A DNA stretch of 64,000 bases, from NCBI RefSeq assembly GCF_916619195.1, contig NZ_CAKAKL010000005.1, positions 186,001 to 250,000 on the forward strand, written 5' to 3'. Shown here piece after piece: positions 8,243-46,065 of the stretch (position 1 is the first letter of the stretch; every line of letters starts with the position of its first letter). This stretch comes from Inquilinus sp. Marseille-Q2685. Lineage in GTDB: Bacteria; Pseudomonadota; Alphaproteobacteria; DSM-16000; Inquilinaceae. The notes under the pieces are model-generated. The model was not told where the DNA came from. It did no database searches and saw nothing but the letters and a program-made list of their open reading frames with translations. The position numbers were made by a program, and so were the translations under genes.

Positions 8243-8246
<4 letters not shown>

Positions 8247-24403: not shown

Positions 24404-24506
24404 CCACCGGCGGTTTCGCCCGCAATTCATCTATTTAGTTGTGTAGTTGACTTTCATTTCACGCCCTGTCACGTCGAAGCTTCCCGCCCGAGGAGGACAC
24501 CCTTCG

Positions 24507-26186
24507 ATGCGCTCCCACCGCACATCCCGACTGGCCACGCTGGCCCTGATGCTCGCCATCGCCGGCGGCCCGCCCGCAATGGCCCAGGACATCCTGCCCG
24601 ACGGCATCACCCCGGCCGCCGACCCGTCGGCGGTCCCGGCCACGGCGAAGGCCCGCAAGGATACCGTCGTCGCCTCGATCAGCGCGCCGCAGGGCGTGTT
24701 CAACCCCTATTTCTTCAGCAATGGCTGGGATGAGAACGTTACCGAGGTGATCTTCGGCCGGCTGGTCAACTACGACAGCCAGGGCAAGCTGATCCCGGAG
24801 CAGGCGGAGTCCTGGACGGTCAGCCCGGACAACCTCGTCTACACCATCAAGCTGCGGCCGGGCCTGAGCTTCAGCGACGGCTCGCCGCTGACCGCCGAGG
24901 ACGTCGCCTTCACCCTCACCGTGCTGCACGACCCGACGCTGGAGAGCGACACCGACATCACGCCGGCCGCGATCGCCGGCGGGGCGGAGTACAAGGCCGG
25001 CAAGGCCGACGGCATCGCCGGCATCAAGGTGATCGACCCGCAGACCATCCAGGTCACCACCACTCAGCCCGGCGCCAAAACGCTCTACCTGATCGGCGGC
25101 CCGGTGCTGTCCAAGGCGCATTACGGCAAGGGTTTCGCCCGCGGCCAGCTCGACGGCATCCGCGCCCTGGGCGGCGACCCGCTGGGCGCAGGCCCCTATG
25201 TCTTCGACAAGTTCATTCCCGGCCAGGAGGTGCGGTTCCACGCCAATCCGCGCTACTACGCCGGCAAGCCTGGGGTGGAGCATTTCATCTACCGGATCAC
25301 CTCGGACGCCACCAAGCTGCAGCTGTTCCAGACCGGCGAGACCGACTATGACGGCTTCACGGTCAGCCAGGACAATGTCGACGCGCTGCAGAGCCTGGGC
25401 TTCGCCGCGATCAACCTGTACGGCTCCAGCGACTACAGCATGATCGAGTTCAATCCGAAGGATCCGCTGCTGAAGGACGTGCGGGTGCGGCACGCCCTGA
25501 CCTACGGCCTCGACCGCCAGACCCTGGTGACTGTGGTCTATCAGGGCTACGGCCAGGTCGCGACCCAGCCGGTGGCGCCGATCTCCTGGGCCTATGACGC
25601 CAGCGCGGTCGAGCCCTTCGCCTACGACCCGGCCAAGGCCGCGGCGCTGCTGGACGAGGCCGGCTGGACGCCGGGGCCGGACGGCATCCGGGTCAAGGAC
25701 GGCCGGCGCCTGTCGCTGCGCCTCCTGGCCACCAAGTCGCTGTTCAACGACGCGCTGATTCCGATCGCCAAGGAGAACTGGAAGGCGATCGGCGTCGACT
25801 TGGTGCCCGAAGTATCGGACTTCAACGCCCTCCTGGCCAAGCGCAAGTCCGGCGACTACAACCTCGCCACCTTCCGCACCTCGACCATCAACGACCCGCA
25901 TGACGGGGTCGACCGGTTCCTGTCGGAAACCGGCGAAGTCGGCCGGCTCGGCTACCGCAATGCCGAGGTCGACCGGCTGATCCTGGCGGGCAACGCCGAA
26001 CTCGACCCGGAGAAGCGCAAGCCGATCTACCACCAGCTCTACAAGGCGCTGGCCGACGACCCGCCGGTGATCTTCCTGGCCTACCGGAAGATCCTGTCGG
26101 CGACCGATGCCCGGGTGGAAGGCTTCAAGCCGGACATCTACAACGGCATCATCGCCAGCCTGCCGAAGCTGAAGATCGTGCAGTGA
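24507..26186 (+). CDS. Peptide/nickel-type ABC transporter substrate-binding protein
   Basis: Periplasmic binding protein of the SBP_bac_5 family (559 residues), as in dipeptide and oligopeptide importers. The signal peptide (about 1-27) ends GGPPAMAQ. Conserved features include LVNYDSQGKLIPEQAESW, the LRPGLSFSDGSPLTAEDV block and VRHALTYGLDRQTLV. The ATG at 24507 has GAGGAGGA 9 bases upstream. First gene of a five-gene importer; the cargo could be peptides, opines or sugars, since this family is broad. Confidence 0.92.
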   Translation: MRSHRTSRLATLALMLAIAGGPPAMAQDILPDGITPAADPSAVPATAKARKDTVVASISAPQGVFNPYFFSNGWDENVTEVIFGRLVNYDSQGKLIPEQAESWTVSPDNLVYTIKLRPGLSFSDGSPLTAEDVAFTLTVLHDPTLESDTDITPAAIAGGAEYKAGKADGIAGIKVIDPQTIQVTTTQPGAKTLYLIGGPVLSKAHYGKGFARGQLDGIRALGGDPLGAGPYVFDKFIPGQEVRFHANPRYYAGKPGVEHFIYRITSDATKLQLFQTGETDYDGFTVSQDNVDALQSLGFAAINLYGSSDYSMIEFNPKDPLLKDVRVRHALTYGLDRQTLVTVVYQGYGQVATQPVAPISWAYDASAVEPFAYDPAKAAALLDEAGWTPGPDGIRVKDGRRLSLRLLATKSLFNDALIPIAKENWKAIGVDLVPEVSDFNALLAKRKSGDYNLATFRTSTINDPHDGVDRFLSETGEVGRLGYRNAEVDRLILAGNAELDPEKRKPIYHQLYKALADDPPVIFLAYRKILSATDARVEGFKPDIYNGIIASLPKLKIVQ

Positions 26187-26213
26187 GCTTCTGCCGGGTC
26201 TTGCCCTTTTTTT

Positions 26214-26251
26214 CTCCCCCTCCCCTTGCGGGAGGGGGTAGGGGGAGGGGG
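26214..26251 (+). repeat. GC-rich palindromic repeat, copy 1 (REP-like)
   Basis: Contains CCCCTCCCCTTGCGGGAGGG followed by TAGGGGGAGGGG, able to form a strong hairpin around TTGCGGG. Copy 2 (26338-26376) is nearly its reverse complement and a third copy lies at 60187-60222. It sits between the binding-protein and permease genes. Confidence 0.75.
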
Positions 26252-26337
26252 CTCTCTCGGCGAATGCCGGTATCGGTCCATAGGCCGCGGTGATGACGGA
26301 AACGATCCTGACTCATATGCGCGCGGACGCGCGCAGG

Positions 26338-26376
26338 CCCCTCCCCCTTTCCCCCTCCCGCAAGGGGAGGGGGAGG
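26338..26376 (-). repeat. GC-rich palindromic repeat, copy 2, inverted
   Basis: Reads CCCCCTCCCGCAAGGGGAGG within a longer C/G tract, the reverse complement of copy 1. The two copies flank about 86 bases that encode nothing obvious. The permease ATG follows 26 bases later. Confidence 0.75.
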
Positions 26377-26402
26377 TTGGGAGAGACGGCGGCCCGGGAG
26401 GC

Positions 26403-27365
26403 ATGAGGACCTTCGTCATCCGCCGCCTGCTGCTGGCGGTGCCGATGCTGCTGGGGGCGTCGGCGCTGATCTTCTTCGTCTTCGCCCTGACCCCGGGCGA
26501 TTTCGTCGACGGCAACATCAACCTGACGCCGGAGCGGGCGGCGGAGCTGAAGTCGCTGTACGGACTCGACCGGCCGGTCCTGGACCGCTACCTCGACTGG
26601 CTGGGCCGGCTCGTGACCGGCGATCTCGGCTATTCGATGCAGTACCAGATCCCGGTCGGCACCCTGCTGAACCAGTATGTCTGGAACTCCTTCCTCCTCG
26701 CCGGCACGGCCATGCTGCTCTACTGGACCCTGTCGCTGCTGGCCGGGGTGACGGCGGCGGTGAAACCGTATTCCTGGTACGACCGGCTGGTGACGCTGGC
26801 GGTGTTCGCCGCCATGTCCTTCCCGGTCTTCTTCCTGTGCCTTTTGCTGATCAAATGGTTTGCGGTCGACCTGCGCTGGCTGCCGGTCGGCGGCATGATC
26901 AGCACCGGCAGCGAGGCGACCGGCTGGCCGCTGGTGGTCGAGATCGCCGCCCACATGGTGCTGCCGGTGCTGGTGCTGACCGCGCTGCAGGCCGGCAGTC
27001 TGACCCGCTACATCCGCGCCAGCATGCTGGAAGCCCTGGCGATGGACTTCGTCCGCACCGCCCGGGCCAAGGGGCTGAAGGAGCGTACGGTGGTGCTGAA
27101 GCACGCGCTGCGCAACGCCCTGCTGCCGATCATCACCCTGCTGGGCTTCGAGCTGCCGGGCCTGTTCTCCGGCGCCATCGTCACCGAGAAGATCTTCAAC
27201 TGGCCGGGCGCCGGCCACATCCAGATCGACACGCTGGCGGCGCGCGACTATCCGGTGCTGATGGGCTTCACCATGGCGCTGGCGGCGCTGACCATCCTCG
27301 GCAACCTGATCGCCGACATCGCCTATGCCGCGGCCGACCCGCGGATCCGGCTGCGGCGGCGCTAG
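26403..27365 (+). CDS. Peptide-type ABC transporter permease (DppB-like)
   Basis: Inner-membrane permease of 320 residues. It starts MRTFVIRRLLLAVPMLLGAS, the typical DppB first helix, with the external region LTPERAAELKSLYGLDRPVL following. The EAA loop is in MLEALAMDFVRTARAKGLKE. The ATG at 26403 is used; an open frame upstream runs through the repeat pair and is not coding. Four bases separate it from the next permease. Confidence 0.93.
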   Translation: MRTFVIRRLLLAVPMLLGASALIFFVFALTPGDFVDGNINLTPERAAELKSLYGLDRPVLDRYLDWLGRLVTGDLGYSMQYQIPVGTLLNQYVWNSFLLAGTAMLLYWTLSLLAGVTAAVKPYSWYDRLVTLAVFAAMSFPVFFLCLLLIKWFAVDLRWLPVGGMISTGSEATGWPLVVEIAAHMVLPVLVLTALQAGSLTRYIRASMLEALAMDFVRTARAKGLKERTVVLKHALRNALLPIITLLGFELPGLFSGAIVTEKIFNWPGAGHIQIDTLAARDYPVLMGFTMALAALTILGNLIADIAYAAADPRIRLRRR

Positions 27366-27368
27366 GCC

Positions 27369-28322
27369 ATGGGGATCGCCTCGTTGAACCCCTTGCGCCG
27401 CCGCCGGGCGCGCGAGGCCGAGCTGGTGGAGCTCGCCGGCCGCCTCGCCGTCACCCGCTCGCCGCTCGGCGACGCGCTGTGGCGGCTGCGCCGAAACCGC
27501 ACCGCCATGGTGGCCGCCGCGGTGCTGCTGCTGATCGTCCTGGTCTGCGTTGTCGGGCCCTGGGTCAGCCCCTGGGACCTGAACGCGACCGACGCGCTCA
27601 GCCCCAACCGGCCGCCCAGCCTGCGGCACTGGCTGGGCACGGATTTCCTCGGCCGCGACATCCTGGCCCGGCTGATGGCGGCGGGCCGGATCTCCCTGAC
27701 CGTCGGCCTGGCTTCGGTGCTGCTGTCGGTGGTGGTCGGCTACATCGCCGGTGCGGTGGCGGGCTATCTCGGCGGGCTGGCCGACGCGGTGATCATGCGC
27801 GTGGCCGACATCGTGATGACGATCCCGACCCTGCCGCTCCTGATCATCCTCGGTGCCGTGCTGTCCGAGCTGAAGGTACCGCCGGACCAGCGCATCTACC
27901 TGGTCGTCGTCATGCTCAGCCTGCCGAACTGGATCCGCGTCGCCCGGCTGGTGCGGTCGCAGATCCTGTCGCTGCGCGAGCGCGACTTCATGGTGGCGAC
28001 CGAGGTGCTGGGCCTGCCGCTGCACCGCCGGCTGTTCCACCATCTGCTGCCGAACACCGTGCCGATCCTGATCGTGGTCGCCACCGTTGGCGTCGCCGAC
28101 GCGATCCTGAACGAGGCCTATCTCAGCTATCTCGGCCTCGGCGTGGTGCCGCCGACCCCGTCCTGGGGCAACATGATGGACACGGCCAACAGCTTCGTCG
28201 ACTTCCAGCGCCGGCCCTGGCTGTGGGTGCCGCCGGGCGTCGCGATCTTCCTGACGGTGGTCGCCATCAACGTCCTCGGCGACGGGCTGCGCGATGCGCT
28301 CGACCCCAGGATGAAGCGGTAG
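27369..28322 (+). CDS. Peptide-type ABC transporter permease (DppC-like)
   Basis: Second permease (317 residues). An N-terminal cytoplasmic region is followed by AAAVLLLIVLVCVVGPWVSP as first helix, then the periplasmic motif HWLGTDFLGRDILARL. The EAA loop region is SLRERDFMVATEVLGLPLHR. The end, INVLGDGLRDALDPRMKR, is the classic DppC C-terminus. Confidence 0.94.
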   Translation: MGIASLNPLRRRRAREAELVELAGRLAVTRSPLGDALWRLRRNRTAMVAAAVLLLIVLVCVVGPWVSPWDLNATDALSPNRPPSLRHWLGTDFLGRDILARLMAAGRISLTVGLASVLLSVVVGYIAGAVAGYLGGLADAVIMRVADIVMTIPTLPLLIILGAVLSELKVPPDQRIYLVVVMLSLPNWIRVARLVRSQILSLRERDFMVATEVLGLPLHRRLFHHLLPNTVPILIVVATVGVADAILNEAYLSYLGLGVVPPTPSWGNMMDTANSFVDFQRRPWLWVPPGVAIFLTVVAINVLGDGLRDALDPRMKR

Positions 28323-28326
28323 CGCC

Positions 28327-29298
28327 ATGCTGGTCGAATTCCAGGACCTGTCGGTCCAGTTCCGCACCGAGGAGGGCACGGCCCGGGCGGTGACCGGGGT
28401 CAGCTTCGGCATCGCCGAGGGCGAGACCGTCGGTGTGGTCGGCGAATCCGGCTGCGGCAAGAGCGTCACCGCCTTGTCGCTGATGGGCCTCTTGCCGCGC
28501 CCGTCCGGCCGGGTGGCGGGTGGCCGCATCCTCTATCGCGGCCGCGACCTGCTGGCGTTGAAGCAGGAGGAGATGCGCGGCCTGCGCGGCAACGAGATCG
28601 CCATGATCTTCCAGGAGCCGATGAGCGCGCTGAACCCGGTGCTGACCATCGGCGAGCAGATCGTCGAACCGCTGGTCGAGCATCGCGGCCTGGCGCCGAA
28701 GGCGGCCTGGGACGAGGCGATCGATCTCCTGGCCCGGGTCGGCATCGCCCGGGCGGACAGGATCGTCGAGGGCTATCCGCACCAGCTGTCGGGCGGGATG
28801 CTGCAGCGGGTGATGATCGCGATCGCGCTCAGCTGCGGCCCGCGCCTCCTGATCGCCGACGAGCCGACCACGGCGCTCGACGTCACCATCCAGGCCCAGA
28901 TCCTGGAGCTGCTGGGCCGGCTGAAGCGCGAGCAGGGTACGGCGCTGATGCTGATCACCCACGACCTCGGCATGGTGGCGGAGCTCGCCGACCGGGTGGT
29001 GGTGATGTATGCCGGGCGGGTGGTCGAGACCGGGCCGGTGCGCGACATCCTGCTGCGGCCGAAGCATCCCTATACCCGCGGCCTGCTGGCCTCGCGCCCG
29101 GTGCCGGGCCGGCGCCAGCGCCGGCTGCCGTCGATCCCGGGCCAGGTGCCCAGCCCGGCGCATCTGCCCGCCTGGTGCGCCTTCGCCGACCGCTGCTTCG
29201 CCGCGGCGGATGTCTGCCGCACCGGCATCCCGGGGTTGGAGCCGGCCGGCGTGCCGCACCGCGCCGCCTGCTTCCTGGCGCAGTCGGGGGCGATATGA
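28327..29298 (+). CDS. Peptide-type ABC transporter ATP-binding protein (DppD-like)
   Basis: 323-residue ATPase with Walker [10 protein letters not shown], signature [12 protein letters not shown] and Walker [14 protein letters not shown]. The oligopeptide C-terminal extension holds several cysteines ([15 protein letters not shown]), which in this family can bind an iron-sulphur cluster. Its stop overlaps the next start as ATGA. Confidence 0.95.
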
Positions 29299-30263
29299 GC
29301 GACACGCCGCTGCTCGAGGTCGAGGGCCTCAAGACCCATTTCCCGATCCGCGACGGCGTGTTCGGCCAGGTCACCGGCCATGTCCGCGCCGTGGACGGCG
29401 TCGATCTCCGCATCCGCCGCGGCACCAGCTTCGGCCTTGTCGGCGAATCCGGCAGCGGCAAGTCGACGCTCGGCCGCACCGTGCTGGGGCTGTACGAGCC
29501 GACCGCCGGCACCGTGCGATTCGACGGCCGCGACATCAACGCCATCGGCCGCCGGGAGCGGCGGGCGCTGCGGCCGAAGATGCAGCTCGTGTTCCAGGAC
29601 CCCTACGGCTCGCTCAACCCGCGGGTCAGGGTCGGCGACGCGATCGGCGAGGCCCTTTTGGCGCATGGCCTGGTCCGCCGGGCCGAGCTGCGCGACGCGG
29701 TGCTGGAGGTGATGCGGATCTGCGGCCTGGCGCCCTACCATTATGCCCGCTACCCGCATGAATTCTCCGGCGGCCAGCGCCAGCGCATCGGCATCGCCCG
29801 GGCCCTGGCGCTGAAGCCGGAGCTGATCGTGGCCGACGAGCCGGTCTCGGCGCTCGACGTCTCGATCCAGGCGCAGATCATCAACCTGTTCTCCGATCTC
29901 AAGGAGCAGCGGGGCGTCACCTTCCTGTTCATCTCGCACGACCTGGCGGTGGTGGAGCATCTCTGCGATGAGATCGCGGTGATGTATCTCGGCGTGATCG
30001 TCGAGACCGCCGGCCGCGACGCGCTGTTCGACCGGCCGCTGCACCCCTATACCCGGGCGCTGCTGTCCGCGATCCCGGCGATCGACCCGGACACGCCGCG
30101 CGACCGCACGGTGCTGAAGGGCGAGCTGCCCAGCCCGGCCGACCCGCCGGCCGGCTGCCGCTTCCACACACGCTGCCCGCTGGCGACCGACCGCTGCCGC
30201 GCCGAGGCGCCGGAGATGCGGGAGCTGGAGGCCGGTCACAGGGTCGCGTGCCACCTGGCCTAG
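29295..30263 (+). CDS. Peptide-type ABC transporter ATP-binding protein (DppF-like)
   Basis: Second ATPase (322 residues): Walker A GESGSGKSTLGR, signature FSGGQRQRIGIAR, Walker B LIVADEPVSALDV, and the C-terminal region CRFHTRCPLATDRC with cysteines. It starts with an ATG overlapping the DppD-like stop. The five-gene importer is thus complete. The intergenic stretch after it (30264-30341) shows no terminator. Confidence 0.95.
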   Translation: MSDTPLLEVEGLKTHFPIRDGVFGQVTGHVRAVDGVDLRIRRGTSFGLVGESGSGKSTLGRTVLGLYEPTAGTVRFDGRDINAIGRRERRALRPKMQLVFQDPYGSLNPRVRVGDAIGEALLAHGLVRRAELRDAVLEVMRICGLAPYHYARYPHEFSGGQRQRIGIARALALKPELIVADEPVSALDVSIQAQIINLFSDLKEQRGVTFLFISHDLAVVEHLCDEIAVMYLGVIVETAGRDALFDRPLHPYTRALLSAIPAIDPDTPRDRTVLKGELPSPADPPAGCRFHTRCPLATDRCRAEAPEMRELEAGHRVACHLA

Positions 30264-43483: not shown

Positions 43484-44668
43484 TCAGCCTGCCGCGACCG
43501 CGGCCACGAACCGTTCGATCTCGGCCTCGCTGTTGTAGCAGTGCGGCGAAGCCCGCAGCATGGCGTCGAGGCCGCGGTCGGTCATATCGAACATGGTCGA
43601 GCGGCGGCGGGTGACGCTGGTGTTGATGCCGGCCGCGCGCAGCCGTTTGTGCAGCCCCTCGGCCGGCTCGTCCGCCTTGGTGAAGCTGACGATCGCGGAC
43701 CGCTCGGCGCCCTTGTCGCGCACGGTGACGCCGGGCAGGGTCGAGAGCCCGTCGCGCAGCCGGTCAGCCAGAGCCCGGGCTCGGTCGCGGATGGTATCGA
43801 GGCCGAGGGCCAGGGCGTAGTCGACCGCGGCGCCCATGCCGAGGATGCCGGTGAAGTTGCGCTCGAAATTCTCGAAGCGGCGGGCGTCCGGGCGCACCAC
43901 ATAGCGGTCGGGCGCCACCATCTCCGCCGCGTAGAGGTCGAGGAAGGGCGGGTCGATCCGGTCGAGCATCGACCGCCGGACATAGAGGAAGCCGACGGCG
44001 CGCGGCCCGCGCAGGAACTTGCGGGCGGTGGCCGACAGCATGTCGCAGCCGATCGCCTTGACATCGACCGGCATCTGACCGACCGACTGACAAGCATCGA
44101 GCAGGTAGGGAATGTTATGCGCGCGTGCGATCCGGCCGATCGCCGCCGCCGGGTTCACCAGCCCGCCATTGGTCGGGACGTGGCTGACCGCGATCAGCCG
44201 CGCCGGGCCCCGGTCGGTCGCCGTCACCGCCTGCTCCAGCGCAGCGACGTCGAGCTGGCCGGTGGCGTCGTCGGGCACGACCTCGACCACCGCGCCGGTC
44301 CGCTGCGCCACCTGCAGGTAGGAGATGGTGTTGGAGGCGTACTCGGCCTTGGCGGTCAGGATCCGGTCGCCCGGCCGGAAGGGCAGGCCGTAGAACACCA
44401 TGTCCCAGGCCCGGGTGGCGTTCTCCATCATCGCGATCTCGGTCGGATCGGCGCCGATCAGCCGGGCGATCGAGACATAGGCGGCCTCCAGCCGCGGCTC
44501 CGCCTCGGCCGCGGCGGCATAGCCGCCGATTTCCGCCTCCCGCCGCAGATGGTCCAGCATCGCATCCAGCACCGGCCGCGGCGGCAGGGCCGAGCCGGCG
44601 TTGTCGAGATGCAGCACCCGGGCGCAGCCCGGCGTGTCGGCGCGCAACCGGTCGAGATCGAGCATCAT
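43484..44668 (-). CDS. Class V aminotransferase (PLP-dependent, cysteine-desulfurase-like)
   Basis: 394-residue PLP enzyme of fold type I. HLDNAGSALPP opens the domain. The PLP lysine is in SATARKFLRGPRAVGFLYV, and ENATRAWDMVF, LIAVSHVPTNGGLVNP and LLDACQSVGQMPVD match class V enzymes such as isopenicillin N epimerase-like and selenocysteine-lyase-like proteins. No partner suggests sulfur transfer. Its ATG overlaps the glucokinase stop (ATGA), an unusual pairing. Substrate unknown. Confidence 0.87.
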   Translation of the reverse strand: MMLDLDRLRADTPGCARVLHLDNAGSALPPRPVLDAMLDHLRREAEIGGYAAAAEAEPRLEAAYVSIARLIGADPTEIAMMENATRAWDMVFYGLPFRPGDRILTAKAEYASNTISYLQVAQRTGAVVEVVPDDATGQLDVAALEQAVTATDRGPARLIAVSHVPTNGGLVNPAAAIGRIARAHNIPYLLDACQSVGQMPVDVKAIGCDMLSATARKFLRGPRAVGFLYVRRSMLDRIDPPFLDLYAAEMVAPDRYVVRPDARRFENFERNFTGILGMGAAVDYALALGLDTIRDRARALADRLRDGLSTLPGVTVRDKGAERSAIVSFTKADEPAEGLHKRLRAAGINTSVTRRRSTMFDMTDRGLDAMLRASPHCYNSEAEIERFVAAVAAG

Positions 44669-45624
44669 CGTGCCTGAGTGAGGCCCAGCACCGAACGCAA
44701 CCCGATGAAGGCCGGCAGCGGGTGGGTGACGAGGTGCGTCGGAATGCCGACGACGAAGCTGCGCATCCGGCCCTTGGCCTCGAAGCGTTGGCGGAACAGC
44801 GCGCCGTCGAACAGGGGCCCGAGCTTCGGCACGATGCCGCCGGCGATGTAGACGCCGCCGCGCGAGCCCAGCGTCAGCGCCAGGTTGCCGGCGACGGTGC
44901 CGAGCATCGAGGCGAACATCGACACCGCCTCGACGCAATGCGGATCGCCGGTCCCGGCACCCTCGGTCACGGCGGCGGCGTCCCGCTGCGCGGGGTCGAC
45001 ACCGTCGAGCTGCGACAGCGTCTCGTACAGGTTCACCAGCCCCATGCCGGACAGCACCCGCTCGGCCGAGACATGCTGGTAGCGGTGCCGCAGTCGGTCC
45101 AGCACCGCCGCCTCGCGCTCGGTCGCCGCGGCCATGGTGACGTGCCCGCCCTCGCCGGCCAGGGCGGCCCAGCGCCCGCCGCTCGGCACCAGGCCGGAGA
45201 CGCCGAGGCCGGTGCCGGGGCCGAGCACGCCGATCGGCTCGTCCGCCACCGCCGCCCCGCCGCCGATCCGGGTGCGGTCGCCCTCCTCAAGATAGGGCAC
45301 CGCCAGGGCGACGGCGGTGAAGTCGTTGATCACCTCCAGCCGCTCCAGCCCCAGATCCTTCTTGAGGCTCGCGATCGAAAAGGACCATGCGGCGTTGGTC
45401 AGGGTCACCTGATCACCGGTGACCGGGCTGGCCACGTCGATCGCCGCCTGCCGGGGCGGAGTCGCCGGCTTGACCATGTCGAGATAGGCGTGGGCGGCAT
45501 CGGCCAGGGTCGGATAATCCGCCCCGTGCAGGATCTTGGTGTCGCGCGTCCCGCCGGCATCGGCCAGGGCGAAGCGGGCGTTGGTGCCGCCGAGATCGGC
45601 GATGAGGGCGAGGGGCTCAGACAT
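44665..45624 (-). CDS. glk: Glucokinase
   Basis: ATP-dependent glucose kinase of the bacterial Glk family (319 residues). The phosphate-binding motif is IADLGGTNARFALAD and later motifs include LEVINDFTAVALAVPYL, LGPGTGLGVSGLV and VYIAGGIVPKLGPLF. Start MSEPLALIA at 45624 is used; the open frame upstream to 45801 is AT-rich and holds palindromes. It is coupled to the aminotransferase gene. Confidence 0.95.
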   Translation of the reverse strand: MSEPLALIADLGGTNARFALADAGGTRDTKILHGADYPTLADAAHAYLDMVKPATPPRQAAIDVASPVTGDQVTLTNAAWSFSIASLKKDLGLERLEVINDFTAVALAVPYLEEGDRTRIGGGAAVADEPIGVLGPGTGLGVSGLVPSGGRWAALAGEGGHVTMAAATEREAAVLDRLRHRYQHVSAERVLSGMGLVNLYETLSQLDGVDPAQRDAAAVTEGAGTGDPHCVEAVSMFASMLGTVAGNLALTLGSRGGVYIAGGIVPKLGPLFDGALFRQRFEAKGRMRSFVVGIPTHLVTHPLPAFIGLRSVLGLTQAR

Positions 45625-45783: not shown

Positions 45784-45806
45784 CTTAGGCACGAATGGCA
45801 CCTAAG
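45784..45806. promoter_or_regulatory. Inverted repeat upstream of the small-RNA candidate
   Basis: CTTAGG and CCTAAG form a perfect 6-bp inverted repeat around 11 bases. It lies in the AT-rich gap between glk and the RNA candidate and could be an operator or a hairpin at the RNA's 5' end. Confidence 0.35.
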
Positions 45807-45959
45807 CGCCTGTTGCATAAGGAGAATTTATTTTCTTCTTGATTTGTCGGGCGAACTCCCTAAATTGTGCATTGCGACATGCAGCGATGCTGCTGTCGTA
45901 ACGCACTTCTTGGGCGTTTCCTCCCTAAACTCGGGCCGCAGTTCGCTGCGGCCCTTTTT
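45807..45959 (+). ncRNA. Candidate structured small RNA with two CTCCCTAAA modules
   Basis: Between glk and the bactofilin gene a stretch with no credible protein frame has an ordered layout: module GGGCG-N2-CTCCCTAAA (45849-45864), an 18-bp stem-loop (45867-45906) with a GAT loop and tip GCAGC/GCTGC, module GGGCG-N4-CTCCCTAAA (45912-45929), and a strong intrinsic terminator. CTCCCT is complementary to Shine-Dalgarno sequences. Two such motifs in a short terminated RNA recall the AbcR (alpha-r15) family, though I cannot align it to any known RNA. The 5' end is a guess; no firm promoter was found. The gap from 45960 to 46061 shows nothing further. Confidence 0.55.
45933..45959 (+). terminator. 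Intrinsic terminator of the small-RNA candidate
   Basis: A perfect 9-bp stem GGGCCGCAG / CTGCGGCCC with a TTCG tetraloop is followed by TTTTTCTTT. No plus-strand protein gene ends nearby, so it must end a noncoding transcript. Confidence 0.88.
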
Positions 45960-46065
45960 CTTTGCGCGGCCCCGGACACGTCGGCAGCCGGGAAGGCTCG
46001 ATCTCCGGTCCCTTCGGATCCCGGGACAGCTCGAATCGCCCTCGGGCGATCGGTAGGACAGCGAA

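Follow-up and report, generated by a model that had tools for sequence, protein, structure and literature searches.

The window analyzed here, a stretch of 64,000 nucleotides from an Inquilinus genome, contains a noncoding stretch that raises the question of whether it encodes a new small RNA (sRNA) with an anti-Shine-Dalgarno module on each side of a hairpin. The letters on which the original prediction was built, namely the modules, the hairpin, the terminator and the T run, are all present and lie where they were described. The first module consists of GGGCG (45849-45853), two bases and CTCCCTAAA (45856-45864), and the second, after the hairpin, of GGGCG (45912-45916), four bases and CTCCCTAAA (45921-45929). 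The latter sequence occurs exactly twice in the window, compared with a mean of 0.02 occurrences in shuffled sequences, and none of 100 shuffles contained it twice. We are highly confident that the feature is the gene for an alpha-R8 trans-acting sRNA, divergent from glucokinase and with one core module, and that the "first module" is promoter DNA.

Identity and structure of the small RNA

The Rfam family RF00519 (suhB/MmgR, alpha-R8) matched the window at 45896-45969 on the plus strand with 57.8 bits, compared with a gathering cut-off of 41, and the alignment covers model positions 1-77 of 77. This was one of two matches above curated cut-offs in a scan of the whole window, the other being a tRNA. 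The original prediction had presented the RNA as new, a claim that it made dependent on there being no confident match to a known family in Rfam; since such a match is what the search returned, the novelty of the sRNA is gone. The prediction was right that the sRNA is noncoding and that it combines an anti-Shine-Dalgarno motif with a hairpin and a terminator of its own. The window RNA also matched SorY (RF02651) and BjrC1505 (RF02356) weakly, with 24.0 and 24.8 bits, far below the gathering scores of these families (50 and 111). A second RF00519 copy with 47.2 bits brings the total above the cut-off in this genome to two, and the family is above the cut-off in all 17 genomes of the order and in 38 of the 61 genomes of the relatives search (this genome counted). 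A literature search on small RNAs in Inquilinus gave nothing related, judged by title. Alpha-R8 is already known across the alphaproteobacteria and the window copy is an ordinary one; being one copy of a widespread sRNA, it is by itself of little weight.

Based on the RF00519 alignment and on the point at which similarity to the paralogous copy starts, we place the sRNA at 45868..45959 on the plus strand, with a length of about 85-92 nt and a 5' end that probably lies at about 45868-45875. Folded from 45868, the RNA is predicted to form a 16-pair 5' hairpin (45868..45905), a short helix over part of the core and an intrinsic terminator (45933..45959), which lies inside the RF00519 alignment and comprises a stem-loop of nine pairs with a loop of four (45933-45954) followed by the T run. 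The hairpin is thus present as predicted, but its stem is shorter than the 18 base pairs ascribed to it, with 17 pairs when 45815-45962 is folded and 16 when folding starts at 45868. The anti-Shine-Dalgarno core, UUUCCUCCCU (45917..45926), is a 10-mer shared with Caulobacter SisA-D. It is identical in all 15 aligned genomes, where it forms part of a 21-column block, TGGGCGTTTCCTCCCTAAACT, with 20 invariant columns. In the predicted fold of the RNA alone the first six bases of the core have unpaired probabilities of 0.69-1.0, while the last four (0.02-0.46) are mostly paired, which counts against the alpha-R8 explanation.

Covariation, which had been proposed as a check, was found for the hairpin and the terminator. 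Among 23 copies, 96.3% of the pairs in these two elements are standard and six pairs have changed on both sides. Covariation was 0.220, compared with 0.130 in shuffles, and the cells changed on both sides numbered 21, compared with 6.4; none of the 500 shuffles, which ignore the relatedness of the genomes, reached either value. The covariation was also above that of all six slid versions of the alignment, and changes on both sides occur at four of the 11 hairpin pairs counted. The Rfam model instead places a weak hairpin just 5' of the core (45903-45915), in which one of the four pairs is non-standard; it is the longer hairpin at 45868-45905 that is supported by the covariation in these alignments. 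The first alignment (A1) contains one copy each from 15 of the 17 genomes of the order, leaving out G006, whose copies are all divergent, and G013, whose usable copy was placed in the second alignment (A2) only. The latter comprises 23 of 40 alpha-R8 places and omits the divergent second-type copies L026, L046, L047 and L054-L058 along with weak matches that have no locus, of which Inquilinus accounts for three (29.8-34.2 bits), so the covariation holds for the copies that align well.

The existence of a terminator would also suit an element belonging to the terminator or 3' UTR of a neighboring protein gene, or to an mRNA leader, without any independent RNA. We consider this extremely improbable because both neighbors, glk and the bactofilin gene that follows the sRNA gene, are on the minus strand, and because covariation together with a known RNA family that has a promoter ahead of it explains the feature. 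The glucokinase gene (glk; PF02685, 360.6 bits), from which the alpha-R8 gene is divergent, occupies 44665..45624 on the minus strand, its start at 45624 being presumed from the protein start MSEPL. Its product is 89-94% identical to the proteins of five records, four of Inquilinus limosus and one of Mycobacterium sp. KBS0706. The record with the latter title (L076, NZ_VCCH02000107.1) contains the Inquilinus glk-alpha-R8 locus, with 94% identity in glk, and judging from this sequence its name is probably wrong. An alpha-R8 core with up to four mismatches was found beside glk in 20 of 79 glk loci, always on the opposite strand and with two Nitrospirillum loci included; the 79 loci came from named genomes, including many gamma- and betaproteobacteria, and the search covered the flank retrieved, which for some was short.

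In PMC12559287, alpha-R8 is described as adjoining the FGase gene in most species. None of the four FGase matches in this genome is adjacent to either alpha-R8 copy, and the nearest is about 25.5 kb from the window sRNA, which counts against the alpha-R8 explanation. Between glk and the sRNA promoter, upstream of the latter, there is an inverted repeat, CTTAGG-N11-CCTAAG (45784..45806), of which CTTAG-N13-CTAAG is kept in five of the six Inquilinus orthologues, with G003 one base off. The pattern is not commoner in the genome than expected by chance (one site, which registers on both strands, versus two per strand for the backwards control). It is possible that this repeat is an operator.

The first module and the proposed promoter

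The two modules had been interpreted as a duplication within one RNA. Comparison with orthologues and paralogues indicates that the second module alone is RNA and that the first most likely belongs to a promoter, CTTGAT-N17-TAAATT, lying outside it on the same plus strand. The proposed -35 hexamer, CTTGAT, is at 45838..45843 and the -10 hexamer, TAAATT, at 45861..45866; the 17-base spacer between them (45844..45860) contains the GGGCG and CTCCC of the module (45849-45864), and TAAA of the -10 hexamer supplies the rest. CTTGAT is kept in five of the six Inquilinus orthologues (G003 has CTTGAA), TTG in all 15 aligned genomes and TAAATT in all six Inquilinus orthologues. In contrast, none of the 17 spacer columns is invariant in the 15 genomes, and GGGCG and CTCCC are found in the spacer of this genome only (1 of 15), being absent from the five sister genomes and the nine others. 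At these places the five sister Inquilinus genomes have CGGCG, and GACCC, CTGCC or CCCAC. The sisters G004 and G005 carry TTGTCCGGCGAACTGCC, which differs by two substitutions from TTGTCGGGCGAACTCCC here, and are without the repeat. The apparent duplication therefore most likely reflects two substitutions in a promoter spacer that happened to create CTCCC before the -10 box.

A promoter matrix provided further support for this assignment. Built from nine relatives outside the genus, with the sites chosen by their position ahead of the RNA, it ranked the site at 45838 first of 127,920 window positions, with 19.8 bits compared with 17.0 for the next. However, most of the non-Inquilinus relatives (six of the nine other aligned genomes) have CATATT in place of TAAATT, and no promoter for the sRNA was detected in a generic sigma-70 scan, both of which count against the promoter explanation. 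As for the paralogues, each of the six Inquilinus genomes has a second alpha-R8 copy, and these copies are without the first module and align from query position 89, which corresponds to 45868, just past the -10 hexamer. A third copy, G005:C2, aligns over query positions 112-161 only, which counts against the alpha-R8 explanation.

A longer sRNA, with two anti-Shine-Dalgarno modules around the hairpin that serve as two target-binding sites, would account for an exact nine-base repeat that no shuffle contained twice. It would also be consistent with the strong predicted fold of 45815-45962 (z -7.87), although the hairpin and terminator of the shorter RNA lie inside this region. It is very unlikely, however, given that the first module is intact in one of the six Inquilinus orthologues and in none of the nine others while the -35 and -10 boxes are kept, that the second copies resemble this locus only from 45868, and that the module shares positions with the top-ranked promoter match in the window. 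We therefore rejected the two-module RNA in favor of the promoter. The repeat is improbable as a statistic yet, judged by the orthologue, paralogue and matrix evidence, accidental as biology; the case illustrates that the spacer of a promoter can look like a second copy of a regulatory module.

Targets and other alpha-R8-like RNAs

According to PMC12559287, the Caulobacter RNAs SisA-D have a common 10-mer, a hairpin and a terminator, SisA represses many mRNAs through pairing of the 10-mer with the assistance of Hfq, and Hfq binding and target repression have been reported for alpha-R8 homologues. In addition, homologues are covered by an Hfq co-immunoprecipitation table in PMC11005374. If the window RNA behaves as these relatives do, its core UUUCCUCCCU would pair, with Hfq, with the Shine-Dalgarno regions of mRNAs, and this pairing would lead to repression, mainly of mRNAs for nutrient uptake and metabolism. 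By homology, the window RNA most likely carries out the same kind of repression as its Caulobacter homologues.

A genome search for exact complements of the core identified seven sites, compared with none for the backwards control. Two are the antisense strands of the alpha-R8 genes, another runs antisense to a third alpha-R8/SorX-like RNA, and one lies in a stretch with complementarity to alpha-R8, referred to below as the anti-alpha-R8 stretch. The remaining three were rejected as mRNA targets, as they have only frames of 9-16 aa at Shine-Dalgarno distance. No full 10-base core complement was found at a plausible gene start in the genome, which counts against the alpha-R8 explanation.

The original prediction had likened the RNA to AbcR-type RNAs, which repress ABC transporter messages, and had drawn attention to two ABC importers in the window. 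Both importers are indeed present: a sugar-type importer comprising an ATPase with a TOBE domain (7146), permeases (10767 and 12242) and a ROK regulator (4540), and an oligopeptide-type importer at 24447-30263. AbcR1 and AbcR2 (alpha-r15) use a pyrimidine-rich anti-Shine-Dalgarno stretch and in this the window RNA would be like them; it differs in that no AbcR/alpha-r15 model is among its eight Rfam matches up to E=10, where RF00519 has 57.8 bits, and the kinship was rejected. To assess the importers as targets, a 20-base core was paired with 52 gene starts, a crude test that is weak because the starts were chosen mechanically. The start of an oligopeptide permease at 27369 ranked seventh of the 52 (-17.4 kcal/mol) and the start at 8243, of a GH116-like gene in the sugar cluster, ninth, and the start of the ROK regulator was in the top ten of one pairing ranking. 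However, the nine cluster genes hold two of the top ten places, compared with a mean of 2.3 for shuffled cores, and 149 of 200 shuffled cores equaled or exceeded the real core, so there was no enrichment and the importers were set aside as targets. Despite the anti-Shine-Dalgarno-like motif and the two importers, we give practically no credence to an AbcR/alpha-r15-type RNA that represses them, and retain alpha-R8 as the identity of the window RNA.

Several other alpha-R8-like RNAs were observed. The third alpha-R8/SorX-like sRNA candidate in this genome, L140:1480-1545 (+), is near position 960941 of contig C2 and scores 24.8 bits with SorX and 21.8 bits with suhB, both under the cut-off. DNA matches to it were found in all six Inquilinus genomes and in none of the 11 others of the order, and a palindrome-like sequence, GATACGTAACGTAT, precedes it in all six. 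A divergent second type of alpha-R8, in which GGCGATTCCTCCCTA replaces GGGCGTTTCCTCCCTA, is present in G011, G008, G014, G007 and G006 (L054-L058), with scores of 37.7-42.7 bits that lie around the cut-off of 41. In G048, three alpha-R8 matches above the cut-off form a tandem array on one strand, within 600 bases (contig C7, 54432-55030).

A candidate sponge RNA and comparison with known systems

The anti-alpha-R8 stretch, which was obtained from the genome search for core complements, is outside the window and resembles an RNA gene (C1:198876-199017 (-) of this genome, equivalent to L163:1501-1642 (-)). In it, GTGACA-N17-TAAGGT precedes about 142 bases whose end is formed by a bulged stem, CGGCAGG...CCTGCCG, and seven T; by eye, the GTGACA-N17-TAAGGT, the bulged stem and the seven T can be read in all six Inquilinus genomes. 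The stretch itself is conserved in all six and the sequence past the T run is not. A generic scan, of a kind that presumably allows no bulge, found no promoter and no terminator in the copy of this genome, which counts against a sponge. Within the stretch, CGAGTTTAGGGAGGAAAC is an 18-base perfect complement of alpha-R8, present in all six Inquilinus genomes and situated in 39 invariant columns, the longest such run of the candidate RNA; G003 has a complement of 22 bases when compared with its own second alpha-R8 copy. No Rfam family came near its cut-off for the stretch, the best match having 14.7 bits and suhB, on the opposite strand, 12.5 bits.

The stretch has a somewhat stronger fold than its shuffles (z -3.20), and most of the G/A-rich complement is predicted to be paired, which counts against a sponge. 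Its predicted duplex with the window RNA has an energy of -82.8 kcal/mol, compared with a mean of -60.1 (sd 5.5) for 300 mononucleotide shuffles, and that with the second alpha-R8 copy has -91.1. The lowest shuffle reached -84.8, meaning that at least one of the 300 is below the real duplex energy, which also counts against a sponge.

The exact pattern GTTTAGGGAGGAAACH had three matches in 385 genomes of the class, among which this genome is the sole Inquilinus. Those in G148 and G216 are, by eye, alpha-R8 genes read backwards and were rejected, which leaves one match in 385. A model of the stretch (R1) gave six strong matches in the 17 genomes of the order, all in Inquilinus, and no significant match in the 11 non-Inquilinus genomes, which counts against a sponge. 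Four weak matches in three of the latter (G010, G013 and two in G011) had E-values of 0.14-0.61, and in G010 and G013 the match lies over the antisense strand of a weak alpha-R8 match. Across 240 genomes of the class, searched with the stricter Infernal filters and with E-values per genome, R1 matched this genome, G122 (E 7.7e-4) and G066 (E 0.007). The match in G066 is without the complement and coding-like by eye, and was set aside. The weak match in G122, which belongs to another alphaproteobacterial family, is L171:1501-1614 (-), with 28.5 bits (E about 0.2 over the 240 genomes). It contains a run of 20 bases perfectly complementary to Inquilinus alpha-R8, and a terminator of its own can be read by eye; because R1 contains the complement, finding the complement in an R1 match is not alone independent support.

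A DUF1467 gene (PF07330), with a glyoxalase-family gene beyond it, converges on the stretch in G122 and in all three Inquilinus genomes examined. This glyoxalase-family gene is probably mce, which is epimerase-like. The distance between the stretch and the DUF1467 gene is about 60 bases in G122, about 1.2 kb with two genes between in this genome, and more in G001. The shared DUF1467/mce neighborhood does provide independent support and suggests that the stretches of G122 and Inquilinus descend from one locus. Searches of plasmids with the DUF1467 protein and with the anti-alpha-R8 DNA gave no match, and alpha-R8 itself matches 34 plasmid records.

We are evenly divided as to whether a dedicated sponge, encoded convergently to mce/DUF1467, checks alpha-R8 in Inquilinus and also, through common ancestry, in other alphaproteobacteria, such that CrfA and SisA would be one case of a wider and perhaps ancestral pair. 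If it is a true sponge, alphaproteobacteria more widely could share the feast/famine circuit of Caulobacter, which would be testable in several genera.

With respect to known systems, the window RNA shares with the alpha-R8 family, which includes Sinorhizobium MmgR and Caulobacter SisA-D, a full-length match in sequence and structure, the core UUUCCUCCCU, the hairpin upstream of it and a Rho-independent terminator. It differs in that this copy is beside glucokinase instead of FGase and in that the genome has two copies above the cut-off. A Caulobacter sponge, CrfA, is described in PMC12559287; it sequesters SisA-D on carbon starvation, and its residues G49-C63 are protected by pairing. The anti-alpha-R8 stretch is similar to CrfA, as described there, in being an RNA-gene-like stretch with G/A-rich complementarity to the alpha-R8 core, and differs in that G49-C63 are the residues protected in CrfA while the perfect run is 18 bases here and 20 in G122. 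Compared by description, the stretch has about an even chance of being a sponge RNA that is, on paper, like CrfA.
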